Notes under the pieces: generated by a model
The model's database searches: none
Told to the model about the DNA's origin: nothing
What the model saw: only the letters and a program-made list of their open reading frames with translations
Translations under genes and position numbers: made by a program
Shown here: piece after piece, positions 15,068-50,356 of the stretch
Position numbering within the stretch: the first letter of the stretch is position 1
Layout of the letters: every line of letters starts with the position of its first letter
Assembly: GCA_902826025.1 (NCBI GenBank)
Contig: CADEDH010000012.1
Span: forward strand, 1-64,000
Reading direction: 5' to 3'
DNA length: 64,000 nt
Source of the DNA: an uncultured Actinomycetes bacterium
GTDB lineage: Bacteria > Actinomycetota > Acidimicrobiia > Acidimicrobiales > SZUA-35

Positions 15068-15116
15068 GAACCTTGTCGACTTGTACGGCGTGACGCCGTA
15101 GTTCTCGACAACGTTC
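15068..15116. repeat. 49-nt palindromic element (GAAC...GTTC ends) between carboxylase genes
   Basis: The element is exactly symmetrical about base 15092. Nested arms are GAAC (15068-15071)/GTTC (15113-15116), TTGTCGA (15073-15079)/TCGACAA (15105-15111) and TACGGCG (15084-15090)/CGCCGTA (15094-15100), with a TGA loop. It may be a regulatory dyad, since its right arm overlaps the -35 of the downstream gene, or a member of the same palindrome family as those at 20542, 39563, 48941 and 50310. Confidence 0.7.
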
Positions 15117-15132
15117 GACCGTGGGATACGCT
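15105..15132 (+). promoter_or_regulatory. Putative leaderless promoter of the biotin-carboxylase subunit gene
   Basis: TCGACA (15105-15110, 5 of 6 to TTGACA), a 16-nt spacer and TACGCT (15127-15132) end 8 nt before the ATG at 15141, which lacks a Shine-Dalgarno. The palindrome right arm covers the -35. Confidence 0.45.
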
Positions 15133-15140
15133 CCCCGGCC

Positions 15141-17093
15141 ATGAAGATCCTCGTCGCCAACCGGGGCGAGATCGCCCGCCGGGTGATGGCCACCGCCCGC
15201 CGCCTCGGCCACCAGACGGTGGCCGTCTACGCCGACCCCGACGCCGGGGCCCCGTTCGTGGCCGAGGCCGACGCCGCCGTGCGCCTGGGCCCGGCCGAGC
15301 TGGCCGCCTCCTACCTGAGCGTGCCCCGCCTGATAGCGGCGCTGGAGGCGTCGGGGGCCGACGCCGTGCACCCCGGCTACGGCTTCCTGGCCGAGAACGC
15401 CGCCTTCGCCCGGGCCGTCCAGGCCGCCGGGGCCACCTGGATCGGGCCCAAGCCGGAGGCCATCGAGGCCATGGGATCCAAGATCGAGGCCCGCCGCCTG
15501 GCGGCGGCGGCCGGGGTGCCCATCATCCCCGGGTTCGACACCTCCCAGGACCCGGCGGCCCTGGCCGACGCCGCCAGCGCCATCGGGTATCCCGTGCTGA
15601 TCAAGGCGGCGGCCGGCGGGGGCGGCAAGGGCATCCGCATCGTCCACGAGCCGGCCGGGTTCGCCGCCGCCCTGCGGGAGGCGTCGACCGAGGCCGAGCG
15701 GTCCTTCGGCGACGGGGCCGTGATCGTGGAGCGCTACATCCAGCGGCCCCGCCATGTGGAGGTGCAGGTGGTGGGCGACCGCTACGGCACCGTGATCCAC
15801 CTCGGCACCCGGGAGTGCTCGGTGCAGCGCCGCTACCAGAAGGTGCTGGAGGAGGCCCCGGCCCCCAACCTGCCCGACGCCACCCGGGCCGGGCTGCAGA
15901 CGGCGGCCGTGGAGCTGGCCCGCTCGATCGGCTACGACTCGGCCGGCACGATGGAATTCATCGTCGACGACGAGACCGGCGACTTCTTCTTCCTGGAGAT
16001 GAACACCCGGCTCCAGGTGGAGCACCCGGTCACCGAGTGCGTCACCGGACTCGACCTGGTGGAGCTGATGTTCCGTTCGGCCGCCGGCGAGCCGGTGGCC
16101 GTGGCCCAGGAGTCGGTCACGTTCTCCGGGCACGCCTTCGAGGCCCGGATCAACGCCGAGGACCCGGCCAACGGGTTCGCCCCCCAGATCGGCACCGTCA
16201 CCCACCTGCGGGTACCGGCCGGTGTGCGGTGGGACGCGGCGGTGGTGGAGGGCAGCGCCATCACCCCCTTCTACGACTCGATGGTGGCCAAGCTGATCAC
16301 CCACGGCCCCGACCGGGAGGCCGCCCGGCGCCAGCTGGCCACCGCCCTCGACGGCCTGGTGCTGGGCGGGCTGGTGACCAACACCGGCTTCCAGCGATGG
16401 CTGGTGGACCAGCCCCCGGTGGTGGCGGGCCGGGTGACCACCCGCTTCCTCGACGAGACGGCACTGCCCCCGACGCCACCACCGGCCCTCACCGAGGCGG
16501 CCCTGGCGTGGCGCACCACGACGGCCGACACCCGGGGGCCGGCCCCCTGGGCCGCCATGGGCTCGTTCCGCCTCACCCCCCACCGGCCCCGGCAGGTGGT
16601 GGCGCTGCGGGCGGCCGGAGCCGGCGGGGTGGGCGCCCCGGCGGAGACCCACGAGGTCGAGGTCGATGCCTCGGTGGCGGCCCGCTGGGAGGGCGTCGGG
16701 CGCCTGGAGATCGTCGACGACGGGGCCGACGCCGCCCGCCGGGTGGCGGCCTCGGTGGACCGCCCCGGCCGGTCGGTGGCAGTCAACGTGGGCGGCTACA
16801 CCCATAGCTTCGACGTGGTGAGCCGCAGCGAGCGGTGGGCCCCGGCGGCCGGAGCCGGCCACGGATCCGCCACCGCCATCACCGCCCCCTTCCCAGCGGC
16901 AGTGGCCGAGGTGCTGGTGACACCGGGCCAGGCGGTGGGGGGCGGCGACCCGGTGGTGGTGATCGAGGCCATGAAGATGCTGCACACCCTGTCGGCGGCC
17001 GGGGCCGGCACGGTGGACGAGGTGCGGGTGGCGGCCGGCGACCAGGTCCAGTCGAACCAGGTGCTCGTCACGTTCGCCGACCCGGAGAGCTGA
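15141..17093 (+). CDS. Acyl-CoA carboxylase, biotin carboxylase/biotin carrier (alpha) subunit
   Basis: This 650-residue two-function subunit first carboxylates biotin with ATP and bicarbonate, then carries it to the beta subunit. The biotin carboxylase N-domain opens with KILVANRGEIARRVM. The ATP-grasp glycine loop KAAAGGGGKGIRIVHE is at about residue 154. The C-terminal biotinyl domain has EAMKM at 609-613, with Lys612 the biotin site. MCC-type linker sequence joins them. It pairs with the beta subunit upstream and is followed after 14 bp by a PhyH-type gene. Confidence 0.95.
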   Translation: MKILVANRGEIARRVMATARRLGHQTVAVYADPDAGAPFVAEADAAVRLGPAELAASYLSVPRLIAALEASGADAVHPGYGFLAENAAFARAVQAAGATWIGPKPEAIEAMGSKIEARRLAAAAGVPIIPGFDTSQDPAALADAASAIGYPVLIKAAAGGGGKGIRIVHEPAGFAAALREASTEAERSFGDGAVIVERYIQRPRHVEVQVVGDRYGTVIHLGTRECSVQRRYQKVLEEAPAPNLPDATRAGLQTAAVELARSIGYDSAGTMEFIVDDETGDFFFLEMNTRLQVEHPVTECVTGLDLVELMFRSAAGEPVAVAQESVTFSGHAFEARINAEDPANGFAPQIGTVTHLRVPAGVRWDAAVVEGSAITPFYDSMVAKLITHGPDREAARRQLATALDGLVLGGLVTNTGFQRWLVDQPPVVAGRVTTRFLDETALPPTPPPALTEAALAWRTTTADTRGPAPWAAMGSFRLTPHRPRQVVALRAAGAGGVGAPAETHEVEVDASVAARWEGVGRLEIVDDGADAARRVAASVDRPGRSVAVNVGGYTHSFDVVSRSERWAPAAGAGHGSATAITAPFPAAVAEVLVTPGQAVGGGDPVVVIEAMKMLHTLSAAGAGTVDEVRVAAGDQVQSNQVLVTFADPES

Positions 17094-17107
17094 GCTAACG
17101 TTCGCCC

Positions 17108-18058
17108 ATGGCGGTGATGAACATCGAGGTGTCGGTCGACTCGATGGCCGGGGCCCTCCTGGCCGACGGGTACCTGATCGTGGAGGGCCTGGCCCCCGAC
17201 CTCACGGCCCGGGCCCGGGCCGAGCTGCAGGCCGACATCGACGCCGCCCCGGTGGGTCACACCGAGTTCCTGGGGGCCCGCACCAAGCGCCTGGGCGGGC
17301 TGCTCCGCCGCTCACCGGCCGTACACGAGCTGGTGATCCACCCCGTGGTGCTGGCCCTGGCCGACCGCATCCTCCAGCCCCACTGCGCCCGCTACCAGCT
17401 CAACTTCTCCGGCATCATGCACCTCCTGCCCGGGGCCACCGCCCAAGAGCTGCACCGCGACGGCGACATCTACCCCCTCCGCCACCCGGCGCCGCCCACC
17501 CTGATGCCGGTCATGTGGGCGCTCACCGACTTCACCGCCGTCAACGGCGGCACGCTGGTCGTGCCCGGCTCCCACCGGTGGGAGGAGGGCCGGGCCCCTA
17601 CCGCCGGCGAGGTGGTGCCGGCCGAGATGCCGGCCGGCTCCGCCCTCCTCTACCTCAGCGGCACGATCCACGGCGGCGGGGCCAACGTCTCCGACGGCGA
17701 GCGGACCGGCCTCGCCCTCCAGTATTCGCTGGGCTGGCTGCGCCAGGAGGAGAACCAGTACCTGGCCAACCCGCCGGAGGTGGCCCGCCACTACCCCGAG
17801 CGGCTCCAGCGCCTCATCGGCTACGACTACGGGGGCCCGTACCTGGGGTTCGTGAACGGCGACAGCCCCCAGCGGCTGCTCCAACCGGAGCACGACGGGC
17901 CCCGCAACCGCACCAGCCCCGAGGTCGACGCCCTGGCCGCCCGCATGCAGCGTCACCGCTGGGGGAACATCGAGCCGGTACCCACCCCGGCCCGATCCGA
18001 CGGCGACGACGTCGTCCAGCTCAACACCGGGCCGCTGGGTCAGCACGACACCCGCTGA
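17108..18058 (+). CDS. Phytanoyl-CoA dioxygenase (PhyH) family Fe(II)/2-oxoglutarate enzyme
   Basis: This 316-residue oxygenase has the metal triad as His116-x-Asp118 (QELHRDGDIY) and His188 (SGTIHGGGANVS). An Arg in ERTGLALQYSLGW probably binds 2-oxoglutarate. Family members hydroxylate fatty-acyl chains or natural products. The N-terminal 17 residues precede the DGYLIVEGL strand usual in PhyH. The ATG lies 6 nt after TAACGT, so it may have its own leaderless transcript despite lying 14 bp behind the carboxylase. Co-localisation suggests branched-chain lipid catabolism, by inference. Confidence 0.88.
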   Translation: MAVMNIEVSVDSMAGALLADGYLIVEGLAPDLTARARAELQADIDAAPVGHTEFLGARTKRLGGLLRRSPAVHELVIHPVVLALADRILQPHCARYQLNFSGIMHLLPGATAQELHRDGDIYPLRHPAPPTLMPVMWALTDFTAVNGGTLVVPGSHRWEEGRAPTAGEVVPAEMPAGSALLYLSGTIHGGGANVSDGERTGLALQYSLGWLRQEENQYLANPPEVARHYPERLQRLIGYDYGGPYLGFVNGDSPQRLLQPEHDGPRNRTSPEVDALAARMQRHRWGNIEPVPTPARSDGDDVVQLNTGPLGQHDTR

Positions 18059-18084
18059 GCCGGCCCAGCCGGGCCTGGAGCCGG

Positions 18085-18816
18085 TCAACCCCAGCCGGGA
18101 GAGGCGGGGACGGCGCCCGCTGAGCAGGTGAGACCCTCGCCGGCGGAACGACCGGTGGCCCAGGCCAGGATGTCGGCAGCCGAGCCTTCGATCACGGGGC
18201 CGCCCTCGGCCCCCGCAGTCCAGCTCCGACCCAGGTCGGTGGCCCGGACGGTGACCGGCGCCAGGTCCGAGCCGCCGAACCGGCCGGGGAGCTGGTCGAG
18301 CATCGACGCCAGCATCGGCGCCGGCGAGTGGGTCCACGTGTAGCCGAGCCCGAGGTCGATGTGGTGGGCCTCGACCTCCCGCATCCGCAGGCCGGGAAGG
18401 GCCGCCGCCGGGAGCCGAGGCTCGGCCGACGCCGGGGCGAAGGGGCTGATCGACGCCGTCCACGCCTCGGCCGGCATGGCCTCCAACTCGGCGGCCAGGC
18501 GCTCGGCTGCCGCCCGCACGTCGAGCAGGATCATGTCGGCCGGGCGGGTGGCCCCGGCGTCGATGTCGGCGTTGCGCAGGGGCCGCCCCGGGTACATGCC
18601 GAACGGGGCGCCGGTGCGGGCCGACAGGGCCAGGGTGCGGACCCCGTCGGCGTTGCGGGCCAGGTGGGTGAGCACGTGGCCCCGGCTCCACCCCGGTAGC
18701 ACCGAGGGGGCGGCCACGGCGGCGGCGTCGAGACCCTCCACGCTGGCCAGCAGCCGGTCGGTGGCTTCCCGGAGCAGGTCGAGATCGGTGCGGGCGGGCT
18801 CGGGTGCAGTGCTCAT
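18085..18816 (-). CDS. Maleylpyruvate isomerase-like (mycothiol-dependent, DinB fold) protein
   Basis: This 243-residue protein has the N-terminal MDMPI/DinB helical bundle with the metal-site motif GWSRGHVLTHLARNADG and a later HHIDLGLGYT motif carrying further histidines. Family members use mycothiol as cofactor or are thiol-dependent transferases; many in Actinobacteria are uncharacterised. The start at 18816 lies 7 nt after TAGCGT on the minus strand without a ribosome site. It is convergent with the PhyH gene (26 bp) and divergent from the stress protein. Confidence 0.8.
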   Translation of the reverse strand: MSTAPEPARTDLDLLREATDRLLASVEGLDAAAVAAPSVLPGWSRGHVLTHLARNADGVRTLALSARTGAPFGMYPGRPLRNADIDAGATRPADMILLDVRAAAERLAAELEAMPAEAWTASISPFAPASAEPRLPAAALPGLRMREVEAHHIDLGLGYTWTHSPAPMLASMLDQLPGRFGGSDLAPVTVRATDLGRSWTAGAEGGPVIEGSAADILAWATGRSAGEGLTCSAGAVPASPGWG

Positions 18817-18944
18817 GGCGCACACGCTAGGCCGGCGGGCCGGTGGGCGCCGCCCGGGCCGGCATCCGCGCTCGGCGCGCACCGCCGGGGCGCCCAGTGA
18901 CCTTGGACCCTGGGACCGTCACCGGGCCTCGCTACCCTGTGCCC

Positions 18945-19601
18945 ATGTACCGCTCGATCGTCGTCGGCACCGACGGCTCGGCCGGCGCCCGTCTCGCCCT
19001 GTTGCGAGCGGCCGCCGTGGCCGCCGCCGGCCACCAGCGGGCCGCCGTCCACGTGGTGAGCGCCTTCCAGCCGCTCACCGATGCCCAGGTCGCCCAGCTC
19101 CGCCAGGCCCTGCCTGCCCCCTTCCAACACGAGGTCCAGCCCGACATGGGGCCCCGGGCCGCTCTGGCCGAGGCGTCGGAGCTGTTGGCCGCGGCCGACA
19201 TCGAGTTCTTGGCCTACGACCCGCCTGGCCAGCCGGCCGAGGCCATCCTGGCCGTGGCGGCGGAGGTGGGCGCCGATCTGGTGCTCGTGGGCTCCCACGG
19301 CTTGAGCCGCAGCGCCGGCAACGGGTCCGGGTACGGCGCCGAGTCCGGGCTGTCCGGCCCCCCGATGGGGCAGGTGACGGCCCGGCTGGTGCTCGACTCG
19401 CCGGTCGACATCCTCGTCGTCCGTAACTCGATACCGGCCGAACCCGAGGGCGATCAGGCCGATGCCGACCACGATCACGAGACGGTCACCAGCGCCTTCG
19501 GCCGCCTGAGCGAGGCGGCCGGCAAGTTCGAGGCCGGCCACCCCGATCTGGTGCGCACGGTGAGCGACGTCAGCTACTACCTCAGCGGCCTGGGGCTCTG
19601 A
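18945..19601 (+). CDS. Universal stress protein fused to a DUF4404-like helical tail
   Basis: This is a 218-residue protein. Residues 1-155 are a UspA domain: MYRSIVVGTDGSAGARLAL, then the ATP-loop-like GSHGLSRSAGNGSG and the closing SPVDILVVR strand. Residues about 175-218 (SAFGRLSEAAGKFEAGHPDL ending YYLSGLGL) match the short DUF4404 family, which is usually a separate small protein. The domain pairing is unusual. The ATG follows TACCCT by 6 nt and is probably leaderless. USPs bind ATP and act in stress adaptation; what this one does is unknown. Confidence 0.85.
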   Translation: MYRSIVVGTDGSAGARLALLRAAAVAAAGHQRAAVHVVSAFQPLTDAQVAQLRQALPAPFQHEVQPDMGPRAALAEASELLAAADIEFLAYDPPGQPAEAILAVAAEVGADLVLVGSHGLSRSAGNGSGYGAESGLSGPPMGQVTARLVLDSPVDILVVRNSIPAEPEGDQADADHDHETVTSAFGRLSEAAGKFEAGHPDLVRTVSDVSYYLSGLGL

Positions 19602-19623
19602 GGGGCCCACGGCCCGCCCGCTG

Positions 19624-20511
19624 ATGGCCGCCCCGCTCCACACCGATCTGGCCACCGTGCTGGCCTGGGCCGAAGCCCCGGCGGCGGCCGACATCGAGGC
19701 CCGGGTGGCGGCGGCCACTGCTGCCGTGGCCGTCTCGGCCGCCACCGCCGACGAGCTGGCCCGCCTCGTGTCGTGCGTCGACCTCACCACGCTGGAGGGT
19801 TCCGACACCCCGGCCCGGGTGACGGCCCTGGGCCAGCGGGCCGTGCACCCCGACCCGGACGACCCGGCGCTGGCCCCCGTGGCCGCGGTGTGCGTGTACC
19901 CCAGCCTGGTGCCGGCCGCAGCGGCCGCCGTGGCCGGCTCGGGGGTGGAGGTGGCCAGCGTGGCCGGCGCCTTCCCCAGCGGGCAGTCGCCCCTCCCAGT
20001 CCGCCTGGCCGACATCACCGCCGCGGTGGAGGCGGGGGCCGACGAGATCGACATCGTGCTCAACCGGGGCGCCTTCCTGGCCGGCGATCTGGCCACGGCC
20101 CACGCCGACGTGGTGGCGTCGGTGGCGGCCGCCGGTGGGCGCCCGGTGAAGGTGATCCTGGAGACGGGCGAGTTGGGCGGCCCCGATGCCGTGGCCCGGG
20201 CAGCGATGCTGGCCATGGCCGCCGGGGCCGACTTCGTGAAGACGAGCACGGGCAAGATCGCCGTGTCGGCCACCCCTGAGTCGGTGGTCACGATGGCGCT
20301 GGCCGTGGCCCGCTTCGGCGCCGAAACCGGCCGCACCGTGGGCTTGAAGGTGGCCGGCGGGCTGCGCACGGTCGACGATGCCCGCCTCTACGCCGCTCTG
20401 GTGGCCGACATCCTCGGGCCCGACGCCGTGCAACCGTCCCGGTTCCGCATCGGCGCCTCCCGCCTGCTCGACGCCCTGGTCGAAGCCCGTGCCGCCGCCC
20501 AGGATCTCTGA
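19624..20511 (+). CDS. deoC: Deoxyribose-phosphate aldolase
   Basis: This 295-residue class I aldolase cleaves 2-deoxyribose 5-phosphate to glyceraldehyde 3-phosphate and acetaldehyde in nucleoside catabolism. The Schiff-base Lys206 is in DFVKTSTGK, the partner Lys242 in GLKVAGG and the Asp143 in EIDIVLNRG, matching the three catalytic residues of E. coli DeoC. The N-terminus is about 40 residues longer than the E. coli enzyme. It begins 22 bp after the stress-protein gene, likely co-transcribed. Its stop codon falls inside a GATCTCTGAC sequence identical to a repeat arm at 20603. Confidence 0.93.
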   Translation: MAAPLHTDLATVLAWAEAPAAADIEARVAAATAAVAVSAATADELARLVSCVDLTTLEGSDTPARVTALGQRAVHPDPDDPALAPVAAVCVYPSLVPAAAAAVAGSGVEVASVAGAFPSGQSPLPVRLADITAAVEAGADEIDIVLNRGAFLAGDLATAHADVVASVAAAGGRPVKVILETGELGGPDAVARAAMLAMAAGADFVKTSTGKIAVSATPESVVTMALAVARFGAETGRTVGLKVAGGLRTVDDARLYAALVADILGPDAVQPSRFRIGASRLLDALVEARAAAQDL

Positions 20512-20541
20512 CCCCGGCCGCTGAGCCAGCCCCCCAGCCCG

Positions 20542-20588
20542 GAACTCTGACGCTGGAGGCCACAAAACGGCACCCCCCGTCAGAGTTC
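20542..20588. repeat. 47-nt palindromic repeat, copy 1 of the CTCTGAC type
   Basis: Perfect 10-bp terminal inverted repeat GAACTCTGAC (20542-20551) and GTCAGAGTTC (20579-20588) around a 27-nt centre. Its centre shares CTGGAGGCCA and CGGCACCCCCC with the copy at 20603. An unpaired left arm (GATCTCTGAC, 20503-20512) overlaps the deoC stop codon. Confidence 0.85.
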
Positions 20589-20602
20589 ACCAGCGCGCCG
20601 GG

Positions 20603-20649
20603 GATCTCTGACCCTGGAGGCCATAATCCGGCACCCCCCGTCAGAGTTC
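20603..20649. repeat. 47-nt palindromic repeat, copy 2 of the CTCTGAC type
   Basis: GATCTCTGAC (20603-20612) and GTCAGAGTTC (20640-20649), one mismatch between the arms, same 47-nt length and almost the same centre as the copy at 20542. The two form a tandem pair in the deoC-sigma factor gap. Confidence 0.85.
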
Positions 20650-20697
20650 GCTGAGATGGGAGGGAACCGATCGGGCCGGCCGTCTGTCGGAGGGGTT

Positions 20698-21180
20698 GTG
20701 AGGACAGCAACCCCGACGACCGGCTCGGAAACCCCTCCGGGGTTCGACGAGTTCTTCGCCGCCGCCTGGCCCTTCGCCTACCGGCTGGCGGTGCTCGTCA
20801 CCCACGACCGGGCGGCCGGGGAAGACGTGGCTCAGGAGGCCATGACCCGCCTCTACGCCGGCTGGGCCACCATCGAGCGACCCGAGGCATACCTGCGCGC
20901 CACGATCGTCAACACCGCCATCAACTGGCGGCGCCGCCAGGCCACCAGCCGGGACAAGCTGCCGCTGGTCAGCCGGCCCGAGGCGGTCGACCTGGCCGCC
21001 GAGGAGTTGTCGGACGCCCTGGCCGGCCTGCCCGAGCGGCAGCGGGCGGTGCTCGTGCTCCGCTACTGGGCCGGGCTCAGCGAAGCCGAGATCGCCGACA
21101 CACTCGGCTGCCGGCCCGGCACGGTCAAGTCCCTCGCCTCCCGCGCCCTGCACCGACTGTCGAAGGAGCTCCCCCGATGA
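20698..21180 (+). CDS. ECF RNA polymerase sigma factor, SigE-like
   Basis: This is about 160 residues from a GTG with GGAGGGG just upstream; an ATG at 20656 in the same frame is the alternative. Region 2 includes FDEFFAAAWPFAYRLAVLV and AGEDVAQEAMTRLYAGW. Region 4 includes LPERQRAVLVLRYWAGLSEA and a GCRPGTVKSLASRAL helix-turn-helix. This is the compact SigE-family pattern common in Actinobacteria. Its last codons overlap (ATGA) the next gene, which has one membrane helix and may encode its anti-sigma factor. Confidence 0.92.
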   Translation: MRTATPTTGSETPPGFDEFFAAAWPFAYRLAVLVTHDRAAGEDVAQEAMTRLYAGWATIERPEAYLRATIVNTAINWRRRQATSRDKLPLVSRPEAVDLAAEELSDALAGLPERQRAVLVLRYWAGLSEAEIADTLGCRPGTVKSLASRALHRLSKELPR

Positions 21181-22253: not shown

Positions 22254-22351
22254 CCCCGGTCAGGGCTCGGGGAGGCCCCGGGCGAGGCGGCCGGCTGGGC
22301 AACCGCCGCCAGATCGGGCGGCAGCGGTCCGATCCGTGACATCGTGCAGCG

Positions 22352-23659: not shown

Positions 23660-23678
23660 CCGCGCCGTTGGTCGGCTA

Positions 23679-33206: not shown

Positions 33207-34724
33207 CTAGGAGCCTGAGCCGCGCTGAGCGCGGTTCAGGCTCCTCAGAACGGCGGAGGTTCCGGGCGAGACCGCCAGCCGCCACGGCCCCGACAGGAAC
33301 ACCAGCTCGGTGAGTACCACCCGTCCCCCGGCGGCGAACACCTCGACGATCGAATGGTCGACGATCACCCGCACCCCGGTATCGATGCCGGGCCCCACCG
33401 GGAGCGGCGCCTCGTCGAGCGAGGGGAACGCCGGATCGAACGGTTCACCCCCGCCGCCCCCGTGGCGCCGGTCGACCCATACCCGCCCGCCGTCGGCGTC
33501 GGCCCCGATCTCCACCCATTCCTCCGGCCCGACGACGAGCCGCACCCAGCACGGCCCGGCGCCGGCCGGCGCCTCGAACCGGACGTCGGCCGCCAGCATC
33601 GCCCCGTCGCCGGCCCCGTCGGCCCTGGCGCCTGGGGCCCCGGGGCCGTTTACCACCACCGGCGGACCGGCGGCGACGGTCAGGGCCGCCTCCACCGGTT
33701 GGGCCGGAGCCTGGCCCAGCACGAGGGTGCCGGTGCCGTCGTCCTCCAACCAGAGCCGGCGGGGCAGGGCCATGGCGCCCCGCCAGCCGGGAGCCGGGGT
33801 GGCCTTGGCGTAGGCCCAGTTGGATGCCCAGCCGACCATGACCGGCGCGGCCCCGGCGGGCAGACCGTGGTAGGTGACACCGGCGAAGAAGTCCTTCCCG
33901 TGCTCGACGGGCCGGGCGCCGGCACCGTCGGCCACGAAGCGGTGGCCGTCGAAGTCGCCCACCCAATACGTCATCCCCGTGTAGGGCCGGCCCGCCGGGT
34001 GGGCGCCCGACACCACCAGCACCCACCGGCTCCCCCCGGCGCCGCCCGATCCGCCGGGCCTCCGCACCGGCACCTCGAACAGGTCGGGGCACTCCCACAG
34101 CCACGAGCCCTCGGCCGGGTCGGCGAAGGCCGACACCTCTTCCCACTCCAGCCCGTCGGCCGAGCGGTACACCAGCACCCGCCGCTCGGCGGCCGCCCCG
34201 ATCACCAGCACCCACGCCCCGCCGTCGGCCTCACCGTCGCGTTGGTGGCGGAACACCTTGGGGTCCCGGAAGTCCACCTGGCCCCGGTCGATCAGGGGCC
34301 CACCGGGGTGGCGGACCCAGGTCCGGCCTCCGTCGGCCGAACGGGCCAGGGCCACCGACTCGTTGAGCGGTTCGTCGCCCCGGCGCTCGTGGGCCGTGTA
34401 GTAGGCCCACAGCTCACCCGCCCCATCGTCGCCGACGCCCCCATGGCGGGCCACCACCGAGCCGGAGAACACCAGCGTGGTGGCGTCCGGCACCCGGGCC
34501 GGGTACGGCTCCAACGCCAACGGCAGGGGCTCCCACGTCACCAGGTCCCGGCTCACAGCGTGACCCCAGGCGATGTCGCCCCAGTGGCACGCCGCCGGGT
34601 TGGCCTGGAAATGCAGGTGCCACTCGCCATCCACCAGCACGAGCCCGTTGGGGTCGTTCATCCACCCCTGAGGCGGCGTGTGGTGGAAGGCGGGGCGGAG
34701 GTGATCGTTGTCAGCGGGGAGCAC
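33207..34724 (-). CDS. Glycoside hydrolase family 32 (beta-fructosidase / sucrose hydrolase)
   Basis: This 505-residue enzyme lacks a signal peptide and so is probably cytoplasmic. The nucleophile Asp24 is in WMNDPNG, the transition-state stabiliser in VDFRDPKVFRH and the acid/base Glu in LWECPDLFE. The N-terminal propeller is followed by a C-terminal beta-sandwich from about residue 340. It would hydrolyse sucrose or fructans. The start is GTG, 6 bp after the stop of an LLM gene on the same strand. No PTS or sugar ABC genes are nearby. Confidence 0.92.
   Translation of the reverse strand: MLPADNDHLRPAFHHTPPQGWMNDPNGLVLVDGEWHLHFQANPAACHWGDIAWGHAVSRDLVTWEPLPLALEPYPARVPDATTLVFSGSVVARHGGVGDDGAGELWAYYTAHERRGDEPLNESVALARSADGGRTWVRHPGGPLIDRGQVDFRDPKVFRHQRDGEADGGAWVLVIGAAAERRVLVYRSADGLEWEEVSAFADPAEGSWLWECPDLFEVPVRRPGGSGGAGGSRWVLVVSGAHPAGRPYTGMTYWVGDFDGHRFVADGAGARPVEHGKDFFAGVTYHGLPAGAAPVMVGWASNWAYAKATPAPGWRGAMALPRRLWLEDDGTGTLVLGQAPAQPVEAALTVAAGPPVVVNGPGAPGARADGAGDGAMLAADVRFEAPAGAGPCWVRLVVGPEEWVEIGADADGGRVWVDRRHGGGGGEPFDPAFPSLDEAPLPVGPGIDTGVRVIVDHSIVEVFAAGGRVVLTELVFLSGPWRLAVSPGTSAVLRSLNRAQRGSGS
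33209..33245. terminator. Bidirectional hairpin between SMP-30 and GH32 genes
   Basis: A 17-bp stem with one G-T wobble and a TGA loop: left arm AGGAGCCTGAGCCGCGC (33209-33225), right arm GCGCGGTTCAGGCTCCT (33229-33245). It overlaps the last codons of the GH32 gene. On the minus strand a short TTTC run follows; it can serve both converging genes. Confidence 0.65.
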
Positions 34725-39562: not shown

Positions 39563-39614
39563 CCGAACCTGGTGGACTTTGGGCGCATAGTGACCACAAC
39601 GCTGCCAGGTTCGG
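39563..39614. repeat. Palindromic element, CCGAACCTGG ... CCAGGTTCGG
   Basis: A perfect 10-bp inverted repeat (39563-39572 and 39605-39614) with a 32-nt centre, in the 167-bp gap between the DUF35 gene and an LLM gene. Measured between its GAAC and GTTC ends it is 48 nt, close to the 47- and 49-nt elements elsewhere. Nothing else is seen in this gap. Confidence 0.65.
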
Positions 39615-43056: not shown

Positions 43057-44877
43057 ATGCCCGACTTCACGCTCGACGAGATCCTGGCCCACGCCGACCG
43101 GCGGACCCTGGCCGCCGTCGTCACCCACCTGGCCGGCGACCCGAACGCCGTGCCCGACCTGCGCGACCGGGAGCAGATCGAGGCCAAGGCGTCCGAGGTG
43201 CTGCCCCCCTACCTGTCGGGGGAGAAGACGCCCCAGCCCCCCACCGACGAAGTGCTGCAGGCGGCCATGAACCACGCCGTGGGGGCCGAGGTGCCGGCCG
43301 CCTACCGGCCGCTGGCCCGGGAGCAGGCCGGTGTCGGGCCGGTGGAGCCGCCGGCGCCGCTCAGCCCGCCCGCCGGGTTCCACGTGCTGATCATCGGGGC
43401 CGGGGTCACCGGGGTGCTGATGGCCCGGGTGCTGAACCAGCTCGGCCTCACCAACTTCACCGTGGTGGAGCGCAACGCCGAACCCGGGGGCACGTGGTAC
43501 GTGAACCAGTATCCGGGGTGCCGGGTCGACACTCCGAGCATGCTCTATTCCTACTCGTTCGATCCCGACCCGGAGTGGCCCGAGCACTTCAGCCATCAGC
43601 CCGAGCTGCTGCGCTACGTGAAGCAGACGGCGGAGCAGAGCGGGCTCAACGACCGGCTGCGGCTCAACACCGAGGTCGACTCGATGACGTGGGACGAGGC
43701 GGCCGGGGCGTGGCAGGTGGCGGTGCACAATACGGTCACCGGAGCCGCCGAGCGGCTCACGGCCCACGCCGTGGTGGCGGCCATGGGCATCCTGCGGGTG
43801 CCCATGCTGCCCGCCATCGCAGGGCGCGAGACGTTCGCCGGCCCGGCCCTGCACACCGCGCTGTGGGACAAGAGCGTGGACCTCACCGGCAAGCGGGTGG
43901 GCGTGATCGGCACCGGGGCCAGCGCCAACCAGGTGGTGCCGGCCATCTCCCCCATCGTCGAGGAGCTGGTGGTGTACCAGCGCAGCGCCCACTGGATGAT
44001 GTCCCACCCCAAGTACGGCAAGTTCCTGGAGGGCATCGAGAAGGCCCTGTTCCAGGTGCCCATGTACCGGGAGTGGCACCGGTTCAGCGAGGGCTGGAAG
44101 TTCGGCGACGGGGTGACCCCGATGGTCACCGTCGATCCCGAGTGGCCCCATCTCGACCGCTCGGTCAACGCCGCAAACGACCGGTTCCGGGCCCAGCTCA
44201 CCGAGTACCTGGAGAGCCAGGTGGGCGACCGGCCCGACCTGATGGCCAAGTGCCTGCCCAACTTCCCGCCCTACGGCAAGCGGCTGATCGTCGACAACGG
44301 GTGGTACCAGGCCCTGCGCCGGCCCAACGTGCGGCTGGAGACGTCACCCATCGTGGGGATCGACGAGGGCGGGGTGCGCACCCGGGCCGGCCACGACGAC
44401 CTCGACGTGCTGGTGTTCGCCACCGGCTTCCAGGCCGACAAGGTGCTGTGGCCGATCCAGGTGACCGGCTCCGGCGGGGTGGACGTCACGGCCCGGATGG
44501 AAGCCGAGCCCGAGGCCTACCTGGGGGTGGCGGCGGCCGACGCCCCCAACCTGTTCATCACCCCGGGACCCAACGGGATCCTGGGCCACGGCGGCAACGG
44601 CATGCTGTTCGCCGAATGCCATGTGCGGTACATCGTGGAGTCGTTGCGGCTGCTGTTCGAGCGGGGGGCCACGGCGATGACGGTGACGCCGGAGGCGCTG
44701 TCGGCCTACCAGCAGGACCTGCTGGAGCGGCTGCCCCACTTCGTGCAGAGCCTCACCACGTTCGACAACTGGTACCGGGGCGACCGGGACCGGGTGATCG
44801 CCATCGCGCCCAAGTCGCTCCTCGAGTTCTGGAACGACACCCGGGCCCCCGACCCCGCCGCCTACGCCTTCACCTGA
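43057..44877 (+). CDS. Type I Baeyer-Villiger monooxygenase (FAD/NADPH) with N-terminal extension
   Basis: This is a 606-residue flavoprotein. The FAD Rossmann motif VLIIGAGVTGVLMARVLNQL starts at about residue 109, after a 100-residue helical N-terminal domain like that of 4-hydroxyacetophenone monooxygenase. GGTWYVNQYPGCRVDTPS follows. The BVMO fingerprint FAGPALHTALWDK and the NADPH motif VGVIGTGASANQVVPAI are intact. It would turn ketones into esters or lactones. AAAGGGGA precedes the ATG. It ends 3 bp from the convergent VapC gene. Confidence 0.93.
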   Translation: MPDFTLDEILAHADRRTLAAVVTHLAGDPNAVPDLRDREQIEAKASEVLPPYLSGEKTPQPPTDEVLQAAMNHAVGAEVPAAYRPLAREQAGVGPVEPPAPLSPPAGFHVLIIGAGVTGVLMARVLNQLGLTNFTVVERNAEPGGTWYVNQYPGCRVDTPSMLYSYSFDPDPEWPEHFSHQPELLRYVKQTAEQSGLNDRLRLNTEVDSMTWDEAAGAWQVAVHNTVTGAAERLTAHAVVAAMGILRVPMLPAIAGRETFAGPALHTALWDKSVDLTGKRVGVIGTGASANQVVPAISPIVEELVVYQRSAHWMMSHPKYGKFLEGIEKALFQVPMYREWHRFSEGWKFGDGVTPMVTVDPEWPHLDRSVNAANDRFRAQLTEYLESQVGDRPDLMAKCLPNFPPYGKRLIVDNGWYQALRRPNVRLETSPIVGIDEGGVRTRAGHDDLDVLVFATGFQADKVLWPIQVTGSGGVDVTARMEAEPEAYLGVAAADAPNLFITPGPNGILGHGGNGMLFAECHVRYIVESLRLLFERGATAMTVTPEALSAYQQDLLERLPHFVQSLTTFDNWYRGDRDRVIAIAPKSLLEFWNDTRAPDPAAYAFT

Positions 44878-44880
44878 GCC

Positions 44881-45249
44881 TCAGCGGATGGCGGTGACCT
44901 GAGCCGCCGCCTCGCGGGCCGACTCGGCCGTCACCAGCGGGGCGCCGAGGCGGCCGGCTAGGGCCAGCGACAGCAGATCGGACAGCGACAGTCCGTCGTC
45001 GGGGCGCCAGCGGCGGGCGGCCCAGTCGGCGTCCTCCGGGCCCACCGGCACGACCGACAGCCGGTAGGTACCGAACAGGGCCCGCACCAACTCCCAGTCC
45101 CGTCCCCGGGCCACCACCCGCTGGGCCACCTCGGCCCAGGCCAGGGCCCCGCAGACCGAGCCGTCCACCAGCTCCGCCTCCACCAGGGCGGCCCCCGGCT
45201 CCCCCTGGAGGAAGGCCAGCAGGGCCGAAGCGTCGAGCACCGCGCTCAT
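44881..45249 (-). CDS. vapC: PIN-domain toxin (VapC-type ribonuclease)
   Basis: This 122-residue PIN domain has the acidic sites Asp in VLDASALLA, Glu in ALAWAEVAQRV and Asp in LSLSDLLSLALAGRLG, with PLVTAE before the last strand. VapC toxins cleave specific RNAs when freed from the antitoxin. The gene starts 13 bp after the stop of the AbrB-type antitoxin gene, the usual antitoxin-toxin order. Confidence 0.88.
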   Translation of the reverse strand: MSAVLDASALLAFLQGEPGAALVEAELVDGSVCGALAWAEVAQRVVARGRDWELVRALFGTYRLSVVPVGPEDADWAARRWRPDDGLSLSDLLSLALAGRLGAPLVTAESAREAAAQVTAIR

Positions 45250-45262
45250 GGCGTCGACCGCC

Positions 45263-45505
45263 TCAGGCCGCTTCGTGTTGGCCGGCGGTGCGGCGCTCGG
45301 TCAGCAGGTCGCCGACCAGATCCAGCCCCTCGAGCTCGCGTCTCACCCGCTCCAGGAGCTGGTCCCGGGTGAGCAGCACGATCCCGTTGGACGTCTCCAG
45401 CAGCACGAGGGTGGCGCCCTCGTGCAGGCCGGCTCGTTCCCGGACGCTCTCGGGCACCTCGATGTGCCCGTGCGCCCCCATCGTCACGGTGTAGGTCCCC
45501 TTCAT
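45263..45505 (-). CDS. AbrB/MazE-type (SpoVT-AbrB) antitoxin of the VapC toxin
   Basis: This 80-residue protein opens with a swapped-hairpin DNA-binding domain: YTVTMGAHGHIEVPESVRER, then GLHEGATLVLLETSNGIVLL. A charged helical tail (LLERVRRELEGLDLVGDLLT) would wrap and inhibit the PIN toxin. Such antitoxins bind their own promoter together with the toxin. The start at 45505 is supported by family length. Located 13 bp upstream of vapC. Confidence 0.88.
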   Translation of the reverse strand: MKGTYTVTMGAHGHIEVPESVRERAGLHEGATLVLLETSNGIVLLTRDQLLERVRRELEGLDLVGDLLTERRTAGQHEAA

Positions 45506-45552
45506 ACATCCATGGTGCCACAGCCCTCCCGTCACCAGCCAAGGCGCCCCAC

Positions 45553-46986
45553 TCACGTCAGGTACTGGGACAGGCCGCGGGTGAGGTAGCGGCCGTGGCC
45601 GGCCCGGCCGTGGTAGGCGCCGCCGGCGATGATCGTGCGGCCCCGGCTGATCACGGTGTCGACCCGGCCCTGCACCACCGTGCCCTCGTAGGCCGAGTAA
45701 TCCATGTTCATGTGGTGGGTGGCGACCCCGATCGTGGTGGTGCCGTTCGGGTCGTAGAGCACGATGTCGGCGTCGGCCCCGGGGGCGATCACACCCTTGC
45801 GACCGTAGAGGCCGAACATGCGGGCCGGGGTGGTGGAGCACACCTCCACCCACCGCTCCACGGTCAGCTCGCCCGCCACCACGCCCTGCCAGATCAGGTC
45901 CATGCGGTGCTCGACGCCGCCGATGCCGTTGGGGATGTCGCGGAAATCCTGGAGGCCGAGGTCCTTCTGGTCCTTGAAGCAGAACGGGCAGTGGTCGGTG
46001 GCCACCACGGCCAGGTTGTTGGTGCGCAGACCCTGCCACAGGTCGCGCTGGTGGGGGCCGTGCTTCGAGCGCAGGGGGGTGGAGCACACGTATTTGGCCC
46101 CCTCGAACCCGGGGGCGCCGAGGTGGTCCTCCAGGTTGAGGTAGAGGTACTGGGGGCAGGTCTCGGCGAACACGTTGCGGCCGTGGTGGCGGGCGGCGGC
46201 CACCGCCTCCAGGGCCTCGGCCGCCGACAGGTGCACGATGTAGAGGGGGGCGCCGGCCACCTTGGCCAGCTGGATGGCCCGGAACGTGGCCTCGGCTTCG
46301 AGCTCGGCCCGGCGCACGTAGCCGTGGTTGATGGGGGCGGTGTCACCCCGGGCCGCCGCCTGCTCGGCCAGCACGTCGATGGCGATGCCGTTCTCGGCGT
46401 GCATCATGATCATGGCCCCGTTCCCGGCGGCGGTCTGCATGGCCCGTAGCAGCTGGCCGTCGTCGGCGTAGTAGACCCCGGGGTAGGCCATGAACAGCTT
46501 GAAGCTGGTGATGCCCTCGTCGACCAGGGCATCCATGGTCTTGAGGGAGCCCTCGGTGACGTCGCCCACGATCATGTGGAAGGCGTAGTCGATGGCGCAC
46601 TGGCCGTCGGCCTTGGCCAGCCACGTCTCCAGGCAGGGCCGGATCTCCTGGCCCTTCATCTGGGTGGCGAAGTCGATGATGGTGGTGGTGCCACCCCAGG
46701 CCGCGGCCCGGGTGCCGGTCTCGAACGTGTCGGAGGCGGTGGTGACGCCGAACGGCACCTCCATATGGGTGTGGGCGTCGATCCCGCCCGGGACCACGAG
46801 CTTTCCGGTGGCGTCGATCACGGCGCCGGCCCCCCGCTCAGCGGCCAGGGCCAGCTCGGTGCCGGGGGCCAGGAGGGCCACGATCGTCTCGCCGTCGATC
46901 AGCACCTCGGTGAGGGTCTGGCCGGTGGGGCTCACCACCGTGCCGCCCGTGATCAGTGTGGTCCCGGTGCCCGGTGTGCCAGCCAT
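45553..46986 (-). CDS. Dihydropyrimidinase / hydantoinase
   Basis: This 477-residue cyclic amidohydrolase opens dihydropyrimidine or hydantoin rings. The binuclear site is shown by GGIDAHTHMEVPFG, the lysine to be carboxylated in TSFKLFMAYPG, His in MMHAENG and IVHLSAAEAL, and Asp in ATDHCPF. Length is exact for the family. The ATG follows TAGGTT by 6 nt on the minus strand (46993-46998), probably leaderless. No dihydropyrimidine dehydrogenase is adjacent; the role may be pyrimidine or hydantoin catabolism. Confidence 0.93.
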   Translation of the reverse strand: MAGTPGTGTTLITGGTVVSPTGQTLTEVLIDGETIVALLAPGTELALAAERGAGAVIDATGKLVVPGGIDAHTHMEVPFGVTTASDTFETGTRAAAWGGTTTIIDFATQMKGQEIRPCLETWLAKADGQCAIDYAFHMIVGDVTEGSLKTMDALVDEGITSFKLFMAYPGVYYADDGQLLRAMQTAAGNGAMIMMHAENGIAIDVLAEQAAARGDTAPINHGYVRRAELEAEATFRAIQLAKVAGAPLYIVHLSAAEALEAVAAARHHGRNVFAETCPQYLYLNLEDHLGAPGFEGAKYVCSTPLRSKHGPHQRDLWQGLRTNNLAVVATDHCPFCFKDQKDLGLQDFRDIPNGIGGVEHRMDLIWQGVVAGELTVERWVEVCSTTPARMFGLYGRKGVIAPGADADIVLYDPNGTTTIGVATHHMNMDYSAYEGTVVQGRVDTVISRGRTIIAGGAYHGRAGHGRYLTRGLSQYLT

Positions 46987-47069
46987 CGGCTGAACCTACC
47001 GGCCGGGGCGGGGACCGACAAGGGTTGGCCGGCCGCCCGACACCGGGCTCCGTGACGGGATCGAACGGC

Positions 47070-48023
47070 TCAGCAGTCGGTGCCGGTGCCGACGCCGTAG
47101 CCGGCGGTGGCCACCAGCAACAGGAGGAACACCGCCAACAGATGGGCGAAGGCCACGAGGGCCATCGTGCCGAAGGCGACGGCCGGGCCGCGCTGAGCCT
47201 GGGCCGGCACCCCGGGCGAACCCGCGGTGTCAACGGTTGGCGAACGCCGGCGCCGATCGAGCACGGCACCGATGGCGGGGAGACCGCCGAGCGCCGCCAC
47301 GATGGTCAGCATCGTCAGGTAGAGCACGACCCCGTCGCCCCCGCAGGCGGCCATGATCAGCATGAGCAGCCCCTCCGCCACCAGCAGCGGCCCGGCCAGC
47401 ACGAGGGCGACGACGAGGTGGCTCCACCGCAGCAGGAAGCCCGGGCCGGTCGGCTGCCCCGGCCCACCCGGCACCGGAGCCGCCACGCCGGCCGGGTCGG
47501 GACGAGCGGCCGCCAGCGACGGGCGCGAGCGCAGGCGGTACAGGGCGGCGGCGGCCAGGGCGCCCTGCCACAAGGCGGCGATGGCCACCTGGGTGCTCAC
47601 CGCCACGTGGTTGAAGGGCTCGCCGCCGAAGCTCCAGGTTTCGCCCGTGAACACCAGGACCACGGCCGACAGCAGCGCCACCCCGGCCACCCGGGCCCCC
47701 GCCTCGAACCAGGACGACGCCGGGTAGCGGACGTCGAATCCCCCGGCCGTGAGGTAGGCCGCCGCCGTGGCCACCACGATGAGTAGCACGACGCGGACCA
47801 GCGACTCGACCCAGCCCTCGTTCCGGTTGAGGGCGAAGGCGACGATGTACAACGGAGCAATCGGGCCGACGATGGCGCACACGAGGAGGCGATGACGGAG
47901 CCGTTCGACCAGGGGAATCGGAGCGAGGTTGATGGCGATGGTCGGCCATGGTGCCCCGCTGCGATCCCGAGGGCAAGGCACCCCCGGTATGGCCCGGGCC
48001 CGGCTCCGTTTCAGTTGAAGCAC
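47070..48023 (-). CDS. Multi-span membrane protein, paralogue A of a tandem pair
   Basis: This 317-residue protein has about eight helices. It is clearly related to the upstream gene: WPTI...RHRL before helix 1, AGGFDVRYPASS, GETWSFGGE and the end AVAFGTMALVAFAHLLAVFL have close matches there. A Pro/Arg-rich loop divides two helix groups, and a Cys is the last residue. The GTG start at 48023 overlaps the upstream gene by 13 bp. No family is recognised. Confidence 0.7.
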   Translation of the reverse strand: MLQLKRSRARAIPGVPCPRDRSGAPWPTIAINLAPIPLVERLRHRLLVCAIVGPIAPLYIVAFALNRNEGWVESLVRVVLLIVVATAAAYLTAGGFDVRYPASSWFEAGARVAGVALLSAVVLVFTGETWSFGGEPFNHVAVSTQVAIAALWQGALAAAALYRLRSRPSLAAARPDPAGVAAPVPGGPGQPTGPGFLLRWSHLVVALVLAGPLLVAEGLLMLIMAACGGDGVVLYLTMLTIVAALGGLPAIGAVLDRRRRSPTVDTAGSPGVPAQAQRGPAVAFGTMALVAFAHLLAVFLLLLVATAGYGVGTGTDC

Positions 48024-48772
48024 TGGCGGGGCCCGTCGGCCCCGATGGAGGCCAAGACCAGGAGCCCGATCAGGAGAGCCAGATGGGCGATGGCGACCAG
48101 CACCATCGTGCCGAAGGCGACGGCGAACCCGGGGTGCGCAACGGGGCCTCCACCGGCGGCGGCGGTTTCGAGGCGGCGCTGCACCTGCCGGTCACGCAAC
48201 ACGCCGATGCCGGGAAGCCCGATCGGCACCATGAGCACCAGCAGTGCCGCCAGGTTCACGGGGGTCCCATCGATCCCGCAGAGGCCGAACACGGCCACGA
48301 TGGCCTCGACCATGATCAGAGGGCCGACCAGGGCCACGGCCGTGATGAGGTGGGGCCAACGGCGCACCGTGGCGCCGAAACCGCTGCGGGGTGCCGGCCC
48401 CGACACGGCGACCCCGGCGGGGGGCGGCCCGGTCGGCGCACCGACCGGGGGCCAGCGGTGCCAATAGACGAAGGCGGCACCGAGGGCGGCCAGCCACAGG
48501 CCGGCGATCACCGCCTGCTCCCCGGCGCTCACGGCGCTCCCAGCCTCACCGGCGAACACCCAGGGGTCGCCGGTGGCGAACAGGGCGATGGCCACCACCA
48601 CCGTCACGCCCACCAGGCGGACGAGCACCAGGAGCGGCTTGGAGGCCGGGTGGCGGGCATCGAACCCGGCCGCCACCAGCCACACCGCGCCCAGGGCCAC
48701 GGCCAGCAGGAGGACCAGGCGGATCATGAGCTCCCCCTGGCCGTCGTCGCCGTTGACGGCGAAGCCCACCAC
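48011..48772 (-). CDS. Multi-span membrane protein, paralogue B; first helix lies upstream of any standard start
   Basis: From GTG 48772 this encodes 253 residues with about seven helices and AAGFDARHPASK, GDPWVFAGE and AVAFGTMVLVAIAHLALLIG matching paralogue A. The in-frame sequence upstream (WPTITPDLATTPLP and ARHRLAVAALAVPIALWAVV) is homologous to the N-terminus of paralogue A, including helix 1. That frame has no ATG, GTG or TTG before a TGA near 48909. Either a rare start is used or the first helix has been lost by mutation. Confidence 0.65.
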   Translation of the reverse strand: MVGFAVNGDDGQGELMIRLVLLLAVALGAVWLVAAGFDARHPASKPLLVLVRLVGVTVVVAIALFATGDPWVFAGEAGSAVSAGEQAVIAGLWLAALGAAFVYWHRWPPVGAPTGPPPAGVAVSGPAPRSGFGATVRRWPHLITAVALVGPLIMVEAIVAVFGLCGIDGTPVNLAALLVLMVPIGLPGIGVLRDRQVQRRLETAAAGGGPVAHPGFAVAFGTMVLVAIAHLALLIGLLVLASIGADGPRQCFN

Positions 48773-48940
48773 CGCCCACAGCGCAATCGGGACGGCCAGG
48801 GCGGCGACGGCCAGACGGTGCCGGGCCCGCGCCGCGAACGGAAGCGGCAGAGGGGTGGTGGCGAGGTCAGGGGTGATGGTCGGCCATCGTGGCCGGTGGA
48901 AGCGCCTCGTTCAAGGCACCCCCCTCGGCCGTCGTACCAG

Positions 48941-48987
48941 GAACTGTGGCGCCAGGCGCTGCCGTTTGCGCGCTGGCGCCACAGTTC
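48941..48987. repeat. 47-nt palindromic element with 14-bp perfect arms downstream of rtcB
   Basis: GAACTGTGGCGCCA (48941-48954) and TGGCGCCACAGTTC (48974-48987) are perfect inverted repeats around 19 nt. It begins 6 nt beyond the rtcB stop codon and could act as its terminator, though no T-run follows. The same length and GAAC/GTTC-type ends recur in other gaps, and the same core flanks rtcB on the other side at 50310. Confidence 0.85.
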
Positions 48988-48993
48988 GGCCGG

Positions 48994-50154
48994 TCAAACC
49001 CCCTTGTAGTTGAGGATCTGGTGCAGGGTGTGTAGGACGTCCACCAGGTCGGTCTGGTCGGCCATGACCTGATCGATGTCCTTGTAGGCGCTGGGGATCT
49101 CGTCGAGGAGGGCCTCGGCCCGGGCGGCCAGCCACACCTTGCCTTCCATCTGGTGGGCCAGATCGTCGGTGGTGAACAGCTTCTTGGCCTTCGTCCGGCT
49201 GTGCCGACGGCCGGCGCCGTGCGAGCACGACTCCCAACTCGCCGGGTTGCCTCGGCCCCGCACGATGTAGCTCCGGGTGCCCATCGACCCCGGGATCACC
49301 CCCAGGTCGTCGGCCCCGGCCTTGATGGCCCCCTTGCGGGTGATCCACAGATCCCGCCCACCGTGCGTCTCACGCTGGGTGAAGTTGTGATGGCAGTTGA
49401 CCCGGCGGGTCTCCCGCCCGAACCCGAGGAAGGTGGTGACCTCCACCAGAGCCCGGTCCATCATCTGCTCCCGGTTGGCCCGGGCGTAGTCCTGGGCCCA
49501 CAGCATGTCGCCGATGTAGGCCGTGAACTCCGGCGTACCGTCGGTCAGGTAGGCGAGGTCGATGTCTTCCAGCTTTACCTCGAGCTGGCGGGCCAGCTGC
49601 TTGGCCCCGGCGATGTGCATCTGAGCCAGCTGGTTGCCGATGCCCCGGCTGCCCGAGTGCAGCACCACCCATACCCGGCCCCGCTCATCAAGGCACACTT
49701 CGACGAAGTGGTTGCCGGAACCGAGGGTGCCGAACTGGGTGGCGGCCGTGGTCACCTGCTTGCTGGCCAGCTCGGTGGCCGGCTTGTTGACCCGCAGCCA
49801 GGTGTCGGCCCGGTTGCCGACCTGGCCGTGGCCCCGTCCCACGCCCGCCGGGATGGCCCGCTCGATCCGGCCCAGCAACGGCTCGATCGTGTCGGGGAGC
49901 TGGTGGTCGTGCACGTCGAGCTCGGCTGCGATCATGCCGCATCCGATGTCGACGCCGACGGCCGAGGGGATCACGGCGTCCCGGGTGGGGATGACCGAGC
50001 CGACGGTGGCGCCGAGGCCGAGGTGGGCGTCGGGCATGAGGGCCACGTGCCCTTCCACGATGGGGAGGCGGGCCGCCTTCTCCGCTTGCCGGATCGTCTC
50101 GTCGTCGATGTCGCTGGCCCAGGAGATGAGCCGGTCGTTGATCGTGGTGGGCAT
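48994..50154 (-). CDS. rtcB: RNA-splicing ligase RtcB
   Basis: This 386-residue ligase joins 2',3'-cyclic phosphate (or 3'-phosphate) and 5'-OH RNA ends using GTP and Mn2+. Landmarks are VGVDIGCGMIA (metal Cys), GTLGSGNHFVEV, LHSGSRGIGNQLAQMH, RVNCHHNFTQRE and CSHGAGRRHSRT, which holds the guanylylated His near residue 312. Length is near the short bacterial subgroup. GGGAGGG precedes the ATG. No archease, RtcA or RtcR is in the window, so regulation is not the E. coli type. Palindromic elements flank it on both sides. Confidence 0.96.
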   Translation of the reverse strand: MPTTINDRLISWASDIDDETIRQAEKAARLPIVEGHVALMPDAHLGLGATVGSVIPTRDAVIPSAVGVDIGCGMIAAELDVHDHQLPDTIEPLLGRIERAIPAGVGRGHGQVGNRADTWLRVNKPATELASKQVTTAATQFGTLGSGNHFVEVCLDERGRVWVVLHSGSRGIGNQLAQMHIAGAKQLARQLEVKLEDIDLAYLTDGTPEFTAYIGDMLWAQDYARANREQMMDRALVEVTTFLGFGRETRRVNCHHNFTQRETHGGRDLWITRKGAIKAGADDLGVIPGSMGTRSYIVRGRGNPASWESCSHGAGRRHSRTKAKKLFTTDDLAHQMEGKVWLAARAEALLDEIPSAYKDIDQVMADQTDLVDVLHTLHQILNYKGV

Positions 50155-50309
50155 GTCACCCTCCCTTCGGGGTTCTGAGGTGGTTGGCGTCTGGACCGCT
50201 CCCCGGCCGGCCGTGAGTCTTGCTCGGCGCTCGGCCGGCCGGGGCGGCGCACCATGATGACGGGTGGCCCGATGGGCCGCAGGGATTTTCAGGCGACCGG
50301 CACCACGTC

Positions 50310-50356
50310 GAACTTTGGCGCCAGCGCGCAAGATCAAGCACGACGCGCCACAGATC
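50310..50356. repeat. 47-nt degenerate palindromic element upstream of rtcB
   Basis: It begins GAACTTTGGCGCCAGCGCGC and ends GCGCCACAGATC, the same length as the element at 48941 and sharing its TGGCGCCA-type core, with mismatches between arms. It sits in the 225-bp gap between the CoA-transferase and rtcB; apart from this element and the rtcB ribosome site, nothing else is seen there. Confidence 0.6.

Follow-up and report, generated by a model that had tools for sequence, protein, structure and literature searches.

Palindromic elements in the window

The window, that is, the whole stretch of 64,000 nucleotides that was analysed, corresponds to bases 1-64000 of contig 12 of an uncultured Actinomycetes bacterium (genome label G000, 6.87 Mb in 162 contigs) and has a GC content of 72.5%. 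It carries six members of a family of fixed-length palindromes, for which proteins that combine an AbiEi-type part with a DUF559 domain (AbiEi-DUF559) are the candidate partners. These six palindromes had been described in the original prediction, and all of them were found at the same coordinates and with the same lengths. Together with one half element they are distributed as follows, where A, B and C denote subtypes with different arms:

15068-15116, no strand: C-type (C-like) element, 49 nt, GAACCTTGTCGACTT... (sequence; covariance model R1, 38.1 bits)
20503-20541, + strand: B-type half element, GATCTCTGACCCCGG..., without a right arm, immediately ahead of the element at 20542 (unpaired-arm scan)
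20542-20588, no strand: B-type element, 47 nt (sequence, pattern match; covariance model R1, 42.1 bits)
20603-20649, no strand: B-type element, 47 nt (sequence, pattern match)
39565-39612, no strand: C-like element, 48 nt, GAACCTGGTGGAC...GCTGCCAGGTTC (sequence, flank analysis; covariance model R1, 32.5 bits)
48941-48987, no strand: A-type element, 47 nt (sequence, pattern match; covariance model R1, 41.5 bits)
50310-50356, no strand: A-type element, 47 nt, with one mismatch (GAACTTTGG) (sequence, unpaired-arm/mismatch scan)

The element at 15068-15116 lies about 20 nt past the stop codon of gene 13426-15048 (+ strand), that at 48941-48987 lies 6 nt past the stop codon of gene 48994-50154 (- strand) and that at 50310-50356 about 24 nt past the stop codon of gene 50380-51219 (- strand). 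The elements at 20542 and 20603 form a tandem pair with a period of 61 bp and a spacer of 14 nt.

Copy number, length and subtypes

A search of the whole genome, as proposed with the original prediction, gave counts far beyond chance: the pattern common to subtypes A and B (GAWCTSTGRC-N27-GYCASAGWTC) matched 130 sites at one mismatch or fewer and 132 at two or fewer, against none for the reversed pattern used as control, and the A/B copies were 47 nt long without exception. Further scans were made on successive samples of G000 (860 kb, 1.66 Mb and 2.06 Mb). Within the intergenic sequence of the 1.66-Mb sample, there are 42 palindromes of the form GAWC...GWTC with a length of 47 nt, 11 with 49 nt, 2 with 50 nt and 1 with 48 nt, and each of the remaining lengths from 24 to 89 nt contributes 0-2; the length peaks are thus at 47 and 49 nt. 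In a scan of 2.06 Mb that was unbiased with respect to the ends, the GAAC/GATC classes lead the 47/49-nt peak, with 48 elements.

According to their arms, the elements can be grouped into subtype A (GAWCTGTGGC..., 47 nt), subtype B (GAWCTCTGAC..., 47 nt, with the inner block GTNCCG), subtype C (GAACCTTGTC..., 48-49 nt), subtype D (GWWCTGCGTC..., 49-50 nt) and further, rarer subtypes, the length peak of C and D being at 49 nt. The window contains A (48941, 50310), B (20542, 20603) and C-like copies (15068, 39565), with D and others elsewhere. The ends that had been proposed (GAAC or GATC to GTTC or GATC) hold for most copies, but the real terminal motif is GWWC, and copies running from GTTC to GAAC occur.

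As in the original prediction, the elements could not be assigned to a family with a name: no matching described repeat family was found in a literature search largely confined to journals outside subscription, and a search of Rfam gave no match. The A/B arms have only 4 and 2 scattered matches in GTDB r220 and IMG/VR, respectively. At two loci of Promicromonospora (L164 and L165; L-numbers denote loci in other genomes, which bear G-numbers), perfect or near-perfect 47-nt palindromes lie beside nested GGCGAGATAGAACC / GGCGAAGTAGAACC repeats, and their match to the A/B pattern is probably due to chance.

Conserved arms and variable interior

Constant length with a variable interior, the feature on which the original prediction was built, is confirmed by invariant arms, fixed spacing and a free interior. 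Over 20 arm positions, 25 A/B copies from the 860-kb sample show no mismatch and 2 show one, with none at two or three. The arms of B copies are 99.5% identical and their interior segments 44%, 52% and 29%, and in D copies the corresponding values are 91% and 57%. This near-absence of decayed copies counts against neutral decay, since old neutral insertions would leave many damaged ends.

Base 3 (A or T) varies independently on each side, so that it is unpaired in 17 of 41 copies (41%), and it shows no convincing covariation with other positions, whereas symmetry between the arms is kept at base 6 in 41 of the 41 copies and at base 9 in 40. Between subtypes, the left and right arms change in step; within subtypes A and B, interior pairing is little above that of shuffled partners. 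The independence of base 3 combined with the symmetry of bases 6 and 9 agrees less well with selection for a hairpin than with a half-site on duplex DNA that paralogous proteins recognise.

Genomic position, flanks and arrays

With genes called by a simple codon-usage gene caller in the 2.06-Mb sample, 57 elements could be placed. Convergent gaps hold 29 of them, where 8.3 would be expected (p=1e-10), and divergent gaps hold 4, where 20 would be expected (p=6e-7); the usual distance is about 20 nt after the stop codon. The upstream flank is C-rich, and the base immediately outside the element is G or C in 94% of cases. Direct repeats at the edges occur at the level of shuffled expectation, that is, there is no target-site duplication. 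An insertion into terminator loops was considered and rejected, as the apparent complementarity of the flanks is absent within every single subtype, and the pooled signal stems from subtype D, whose flanks are further half-sites.

Tandem copies in G000 have periods of 61 or 72 bp, and in the single-contig genome G240 they have a period of 62 bp at about ten loci, values that approximate whole helical turns. Subtype D cores lie within a longer symmetric array, in which outer half-sites are found about 31 bp from each end of the core, for instance at C13:38886 and C8:23967 (C-numbers denote contigs of G000).

Occurrence in other genomes

Among 60 relatives, which include a member of the same genus, no genome has the A/B arms. 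The same geometry with other arms was detected in scattered genomes of the order by means of a covariance model and then a degenerate 49-nt pattern, which returned, for example, 46 copies in G219, 23 in G393, 22 in G331 and 17 in G240, with a control usually of 0-1, and it was also detected in a few genomes elsewhere in the phylum (39 copies in G592 and 15 in G581). Several of the elements read in other genomes likewise lie close behind a stop codon.

A difference in presence or absence was seen at one locus when comparing G331 and G169, two genomes that are 95-96% identical: G331 carries an element, and G169 a shortened, element-free gap. A second copy is common to both genomes at the same place, with 92% identity. 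The orthologous gap in G001, a genome of the same genus as G000, contains no element, although its neighbours differ and G001 is fragmented.

AbiEi-DUF559 proteins as candidate partners

Gene-level reading covered 30% of G000, and the counts of partner genes refer to that part. A test of gene families with at least three members near elements gave no significant enrichment; the AbiEi-DUF559 family came to light when genes enclosed by two closely spaced elements were read. Its products have about 310 amino acids, with an N-terminal AbiEi-type part (PADLOC AbiEi, E=4e-14; Pfam AbiEi_4) and a C-terminal Pfam DUF559 domain (E=1e-6), a domain that occurs in Vsr-like PD-(D/E)XK endonucleases (PMC12907096). 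A profile search of the PDB weakly matched one endonuclease-like chain and two AbiEi-type chains. In the literature searched, no described role for AbiEi-DUF559 proteins was found, and none of these proteins was detected in plasmids or IMG/VR. The part of the genome that was read contains four paralogs:

C1:28828-29763: flanked on both sides by A elements (at C1:28739 and C1:29787)
C3:16732-17664: a C element on either side (at C3:16665 and C3:17782)
C3:114148-115092: degenerate D-like elements on both sides (C3:113982 and about 115117)
C6: frameshifted, preceded at a distance of about 15 nt by an unlike, 41-nt palindrome (C6:28406)

Flanking by elements on both sides was seen for only 5 of 1800 genes, and 2 of these belong to this four-member family (p=4e-5). 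An element within 130 nt upstream is found for 3 of the 4 paralogs (p=1e-5), one of the three sites being degenerate. In G002, which belongs to another genus of the same family as G000, a homologous gene has an element on either side, both with arms of that genome's own (L174), and in G286 a palindrome lies about 14 nt ahead of the start codon of an AbiEi-DUF559 gene (L220). Elements paired at a distance of about 1 kb, which would suit a gene of this size, also occur at G262:C115, G333:C19, G135:C42 and near 1.724 Mb in G240.

The molecular precedent for such sites comes from AbiEi antitoxins. In Streptococcus agalactiae, AbiEi recognises two 23-bp inverted repeats with a 3-bp gap in its own promoter, where two monomers bind cooperatively and bend the DNA, and for Rv2827c from Mycobacterium tuberculosis the target comprises two pairs of 23-bp repeats (PMC7319586). 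Two 23-bp repeats with a spacing of 1-4 bp add up to 47-50 bp, which are the lengths seen here. A geometry of this type explains at once why the length is fixed, why the arms are strict and the interior, with its inner block, is freer, and why base 3 behaves as it does, and a site upstream of an AbiEi-family gene is likewise observed (the three G000 paralogs plus G002 and G286).

Several points weigh against the link. It rests on six genes, and the C1 gene prompted the test, so that both p values overstate it; by simple arithmetic, leaving out C1 gives p of about 0.007 for flanking on both sides and about 6e-4 for the upstream position. The elements around C3:114148-115092 are degenerate, with visual inspection as the basis for the downstream one, the frameshifted C6 paralog is paired with an unlike 41-nt palindrome, and the three other genes flanked on both sides are not of this family. 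In addition, no partner for subtype B was found in the 30% of the genome that was read, and the proteins, although well matched to AbiEi, have only weak matches in the PDB (E 0.003-0.26). The majority of element copies are located away from AbiEi-DUF559 genes.

Proposed mechanism and alternative explanations

Judging from the sequence features above, we consider it fairly probable that the elements represent a dispersed, REP-like (repetitive extragenic palindromic) population of binding sites for AbiEi-DUF559 proteins. Each element would consist of an inverted pair of half-sites on duplex DNA, each about 23 bp long, 1-4 bp apart and 47-50 bp in total, with an outer block (SGWWCTSTGRC) and an inner block such as GTNCCG. 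The putative reader would bind through its AbiEi-type winged-helix region, which is joined to the C-terminal DUF559 (Vsr-like, PD-(D/E)XK) nuclease-like domain. Each paralog would have its own arm sequence, with one copy of the site preceding its gene, by analogy with the autoregulation of AbiEi antitoxins, and in most cases a second copy following the gene. From there the sites would have spread through the genome and settled behind genes, and bound copies would stay intact in their arms and spacing, which are required, and not in their interior, which is not. A bound site behind a gene may act locally as a roadblock, as an insulator against convergent transcription or as a 3'-end element. 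Spreading of the sites by the nuclease domain would be the natural next assumption, which we put forward tentatively.

The original prediction had offered, as one option, sites bound by one protein that reads the ends. Reading of the ends is strongly favoured by the invariant arms, the fixed spacing, the free interior and the independent base 3; the reader is probably not a single protein but a group of paralogs that differ in the arms they recognise. An ordinary regulon of a host regulator, with immobile sites unconnected to the AbiEi-DUF559 genes, would also yield symmetric sites whose arms and spacing are conserved like those of operators, but the elements lie behind genes rather than at promoters and avoid divergent gaps, the A/B arms are missing from the 60 relatives, and AbiEi-DUF559 genes bear the sites; this is the least likely of the explanations considered. 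It is also unlikely that the elements are REP-like hairpins working as RNA, that is, 3'-end stem-loops or terminators that shield transcripts and are kept for their structure. Such a role would agree with their location shortly after stop codons and between convergent genes, with the palindromic arms and their paired changes across subtypes, and with a C-rich upstream flank like that of Rho-dependent ends. Nevertheless, a hairpin as the main constraint was rejected on the frequently unpaired base 3 and on the A and B interior pairing, and a terminator needs neither an exact length nor GWWC ends; besides the lack of an Rfam match, the base composition of the flanks rises only mildly in A/T at 5-9 nt, and there is no consistent U-tract, as seen without a dedicated terminator scan.

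Mobility of the REP or MITE (miniature inverted-repeat transposable element) type was the other option of the original prediction. What stands of it is the dispersal of the copies, the arms specific to each genome and the presence or absence of an element at one locus of the G331-G169 pair, and the D-type copies moreover resemble multi-site transposon ends. A strict MITE of the DDE type was rejected on the lack of target duplication, and an REP-associated tyrosine transposase (RAYT) is excluded in G000, which has no Y1 transposase gene (PF01797). Y1 genes occur in only 4 of 10 relatives that bear elements, and the Y1 genes read are not flanked by the 47-50-nt elements, some having other palindromes; mobilisation by RAYT/Y1 was rejected. 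Non-autonomous elements without a host function could still have been moved by some other transposase, or by a Y1/RAYT protein that was lost or is missing from the assembly, but hardly any copies are decayed in spite of diverged interiors, and no element-flanked transposase was seen in the sampled 2.06 Mb. This explanation is regarded as improbable to about the same degree as the RNA hairpin. Unpaired arms around a transposase, as ends shared with a full transposon would give, were not seen in the 30% of the genome that was read. Multi-copy insertion-sequence genes were also not seen in the 2.06 Mb, where only three near-identical gene pairs were present, and such genes may have been dropped from the fragmented assembly. 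To our knowledge, the R-box pattern of integron attC sites does not fit the elements, and this candidate was rejected.

Relation to known systems

REP-like repeats are widespread, and their origin outside the RAYT class is unexplained; REPs of the CGTC class have been described as a group that "apparently lacks a dedicated transposase" (PMC3733652). The elements resemble REP/REPIN sequences and their RAYT (TnpA-REP) in being short intergenic palindromes with about 100 or more copies, located behind genes and in convergent gaps, with tandem clusters and a gene flanked by its own repeats. REPs are defined by an unpaired GTAG or CGTC tetranucleotide at one end (PMC3733652), whereas here GWWC stands at both ends and is mostly paired. 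The location and copy number fit REPs, typically 20-40 bp, but the fixed length of 47-50 bp with few decayed copies does not, and the candidate partner is AbiEi-DUF559 instead of a Y1 HuH transposase, with which GTAG-class REPs are associated. With MITEs (Nezha, RUP, NEMIS) the elements share their non-coding nature, inverted ends and dispersal, but they are shorter than the 70-300 bp described, and no cognate DDE transposase was found. The system would work like a REPtron, yet falls outside REPs by its tag and the missing RAYT, and outside MITEs by the missing target-site duplication.

The element resembles an AbiEi operator both in geometry and in its placement before the gene. In the S. agalactiae PabiE and M. 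tuberculosis Prv2827c operators, two 23-bp inverted repeats with a 3-bp spacing (49 bp) likewise precede an AbiEi-type gene, and Prv2827c has repeat arrays like those described here. Unlike these operators, the sites are dispersed over more than 100 places, most of them following genes of other kinds, and the AbiEi-type part is fused to a nuclease-like DUF559 domain. The domain and its PD-(D/E)XK type are shared with Vsr-like endonucleases such as Caulobacter VsrA, for which a role in mismatch repair has been proposed; we know of no AbiEi-type DNA-binding part in Vsr. More speculatively still than the role of the nuclease domain, the system might constitute a REPtron of another type, in which AbiEi-DUF559 nucleases spread and maintain populations of their own 2x23-bp operator across actinobacterial genomes, as a second route to REP-like interspersed palindromes that is independent of HuH enzymes. 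A large REP-like class, previously undescribed as far as searched, now has a concrete partner candidate, and the proposal is directly testable, as the site geometry is that of a characterised AbiEi operator.

Other palindromes

Palindromes of other kinds were observed as well. In G396 and G411, Y1 genes lie between their own 29-44-nt palindromes, some of them with GAAC...GTTC ends (L193, L195 and L196; GAACCTGGTACC..., GAACAGTTAGGGAC...). Further palindromes of fixed length (48 nt), with the ends GATCTGGTGTCC or GCACCCGGTGC, are found in G000 on contig 9 (75524 and 39693) and contig 11 (61125). Finally, the window itself holds an unlike, near-perfect palindrome of 37 nt at 33209-33245 (AGGAGCCTGAGCCGCGCTGAGCGCGGTTCAGGCTCCT), which is akin to palindromes of 35-41 nt with the core GCGCTSAGCGC at C8:18493, C6:110749, C6:28406, C11:60161, C2:115209, C8:30341 and C2:97379; the one at C6:28406 (41 nt) is that located directly ahead of the frameshifted AbiEi-DUF559 paralog.

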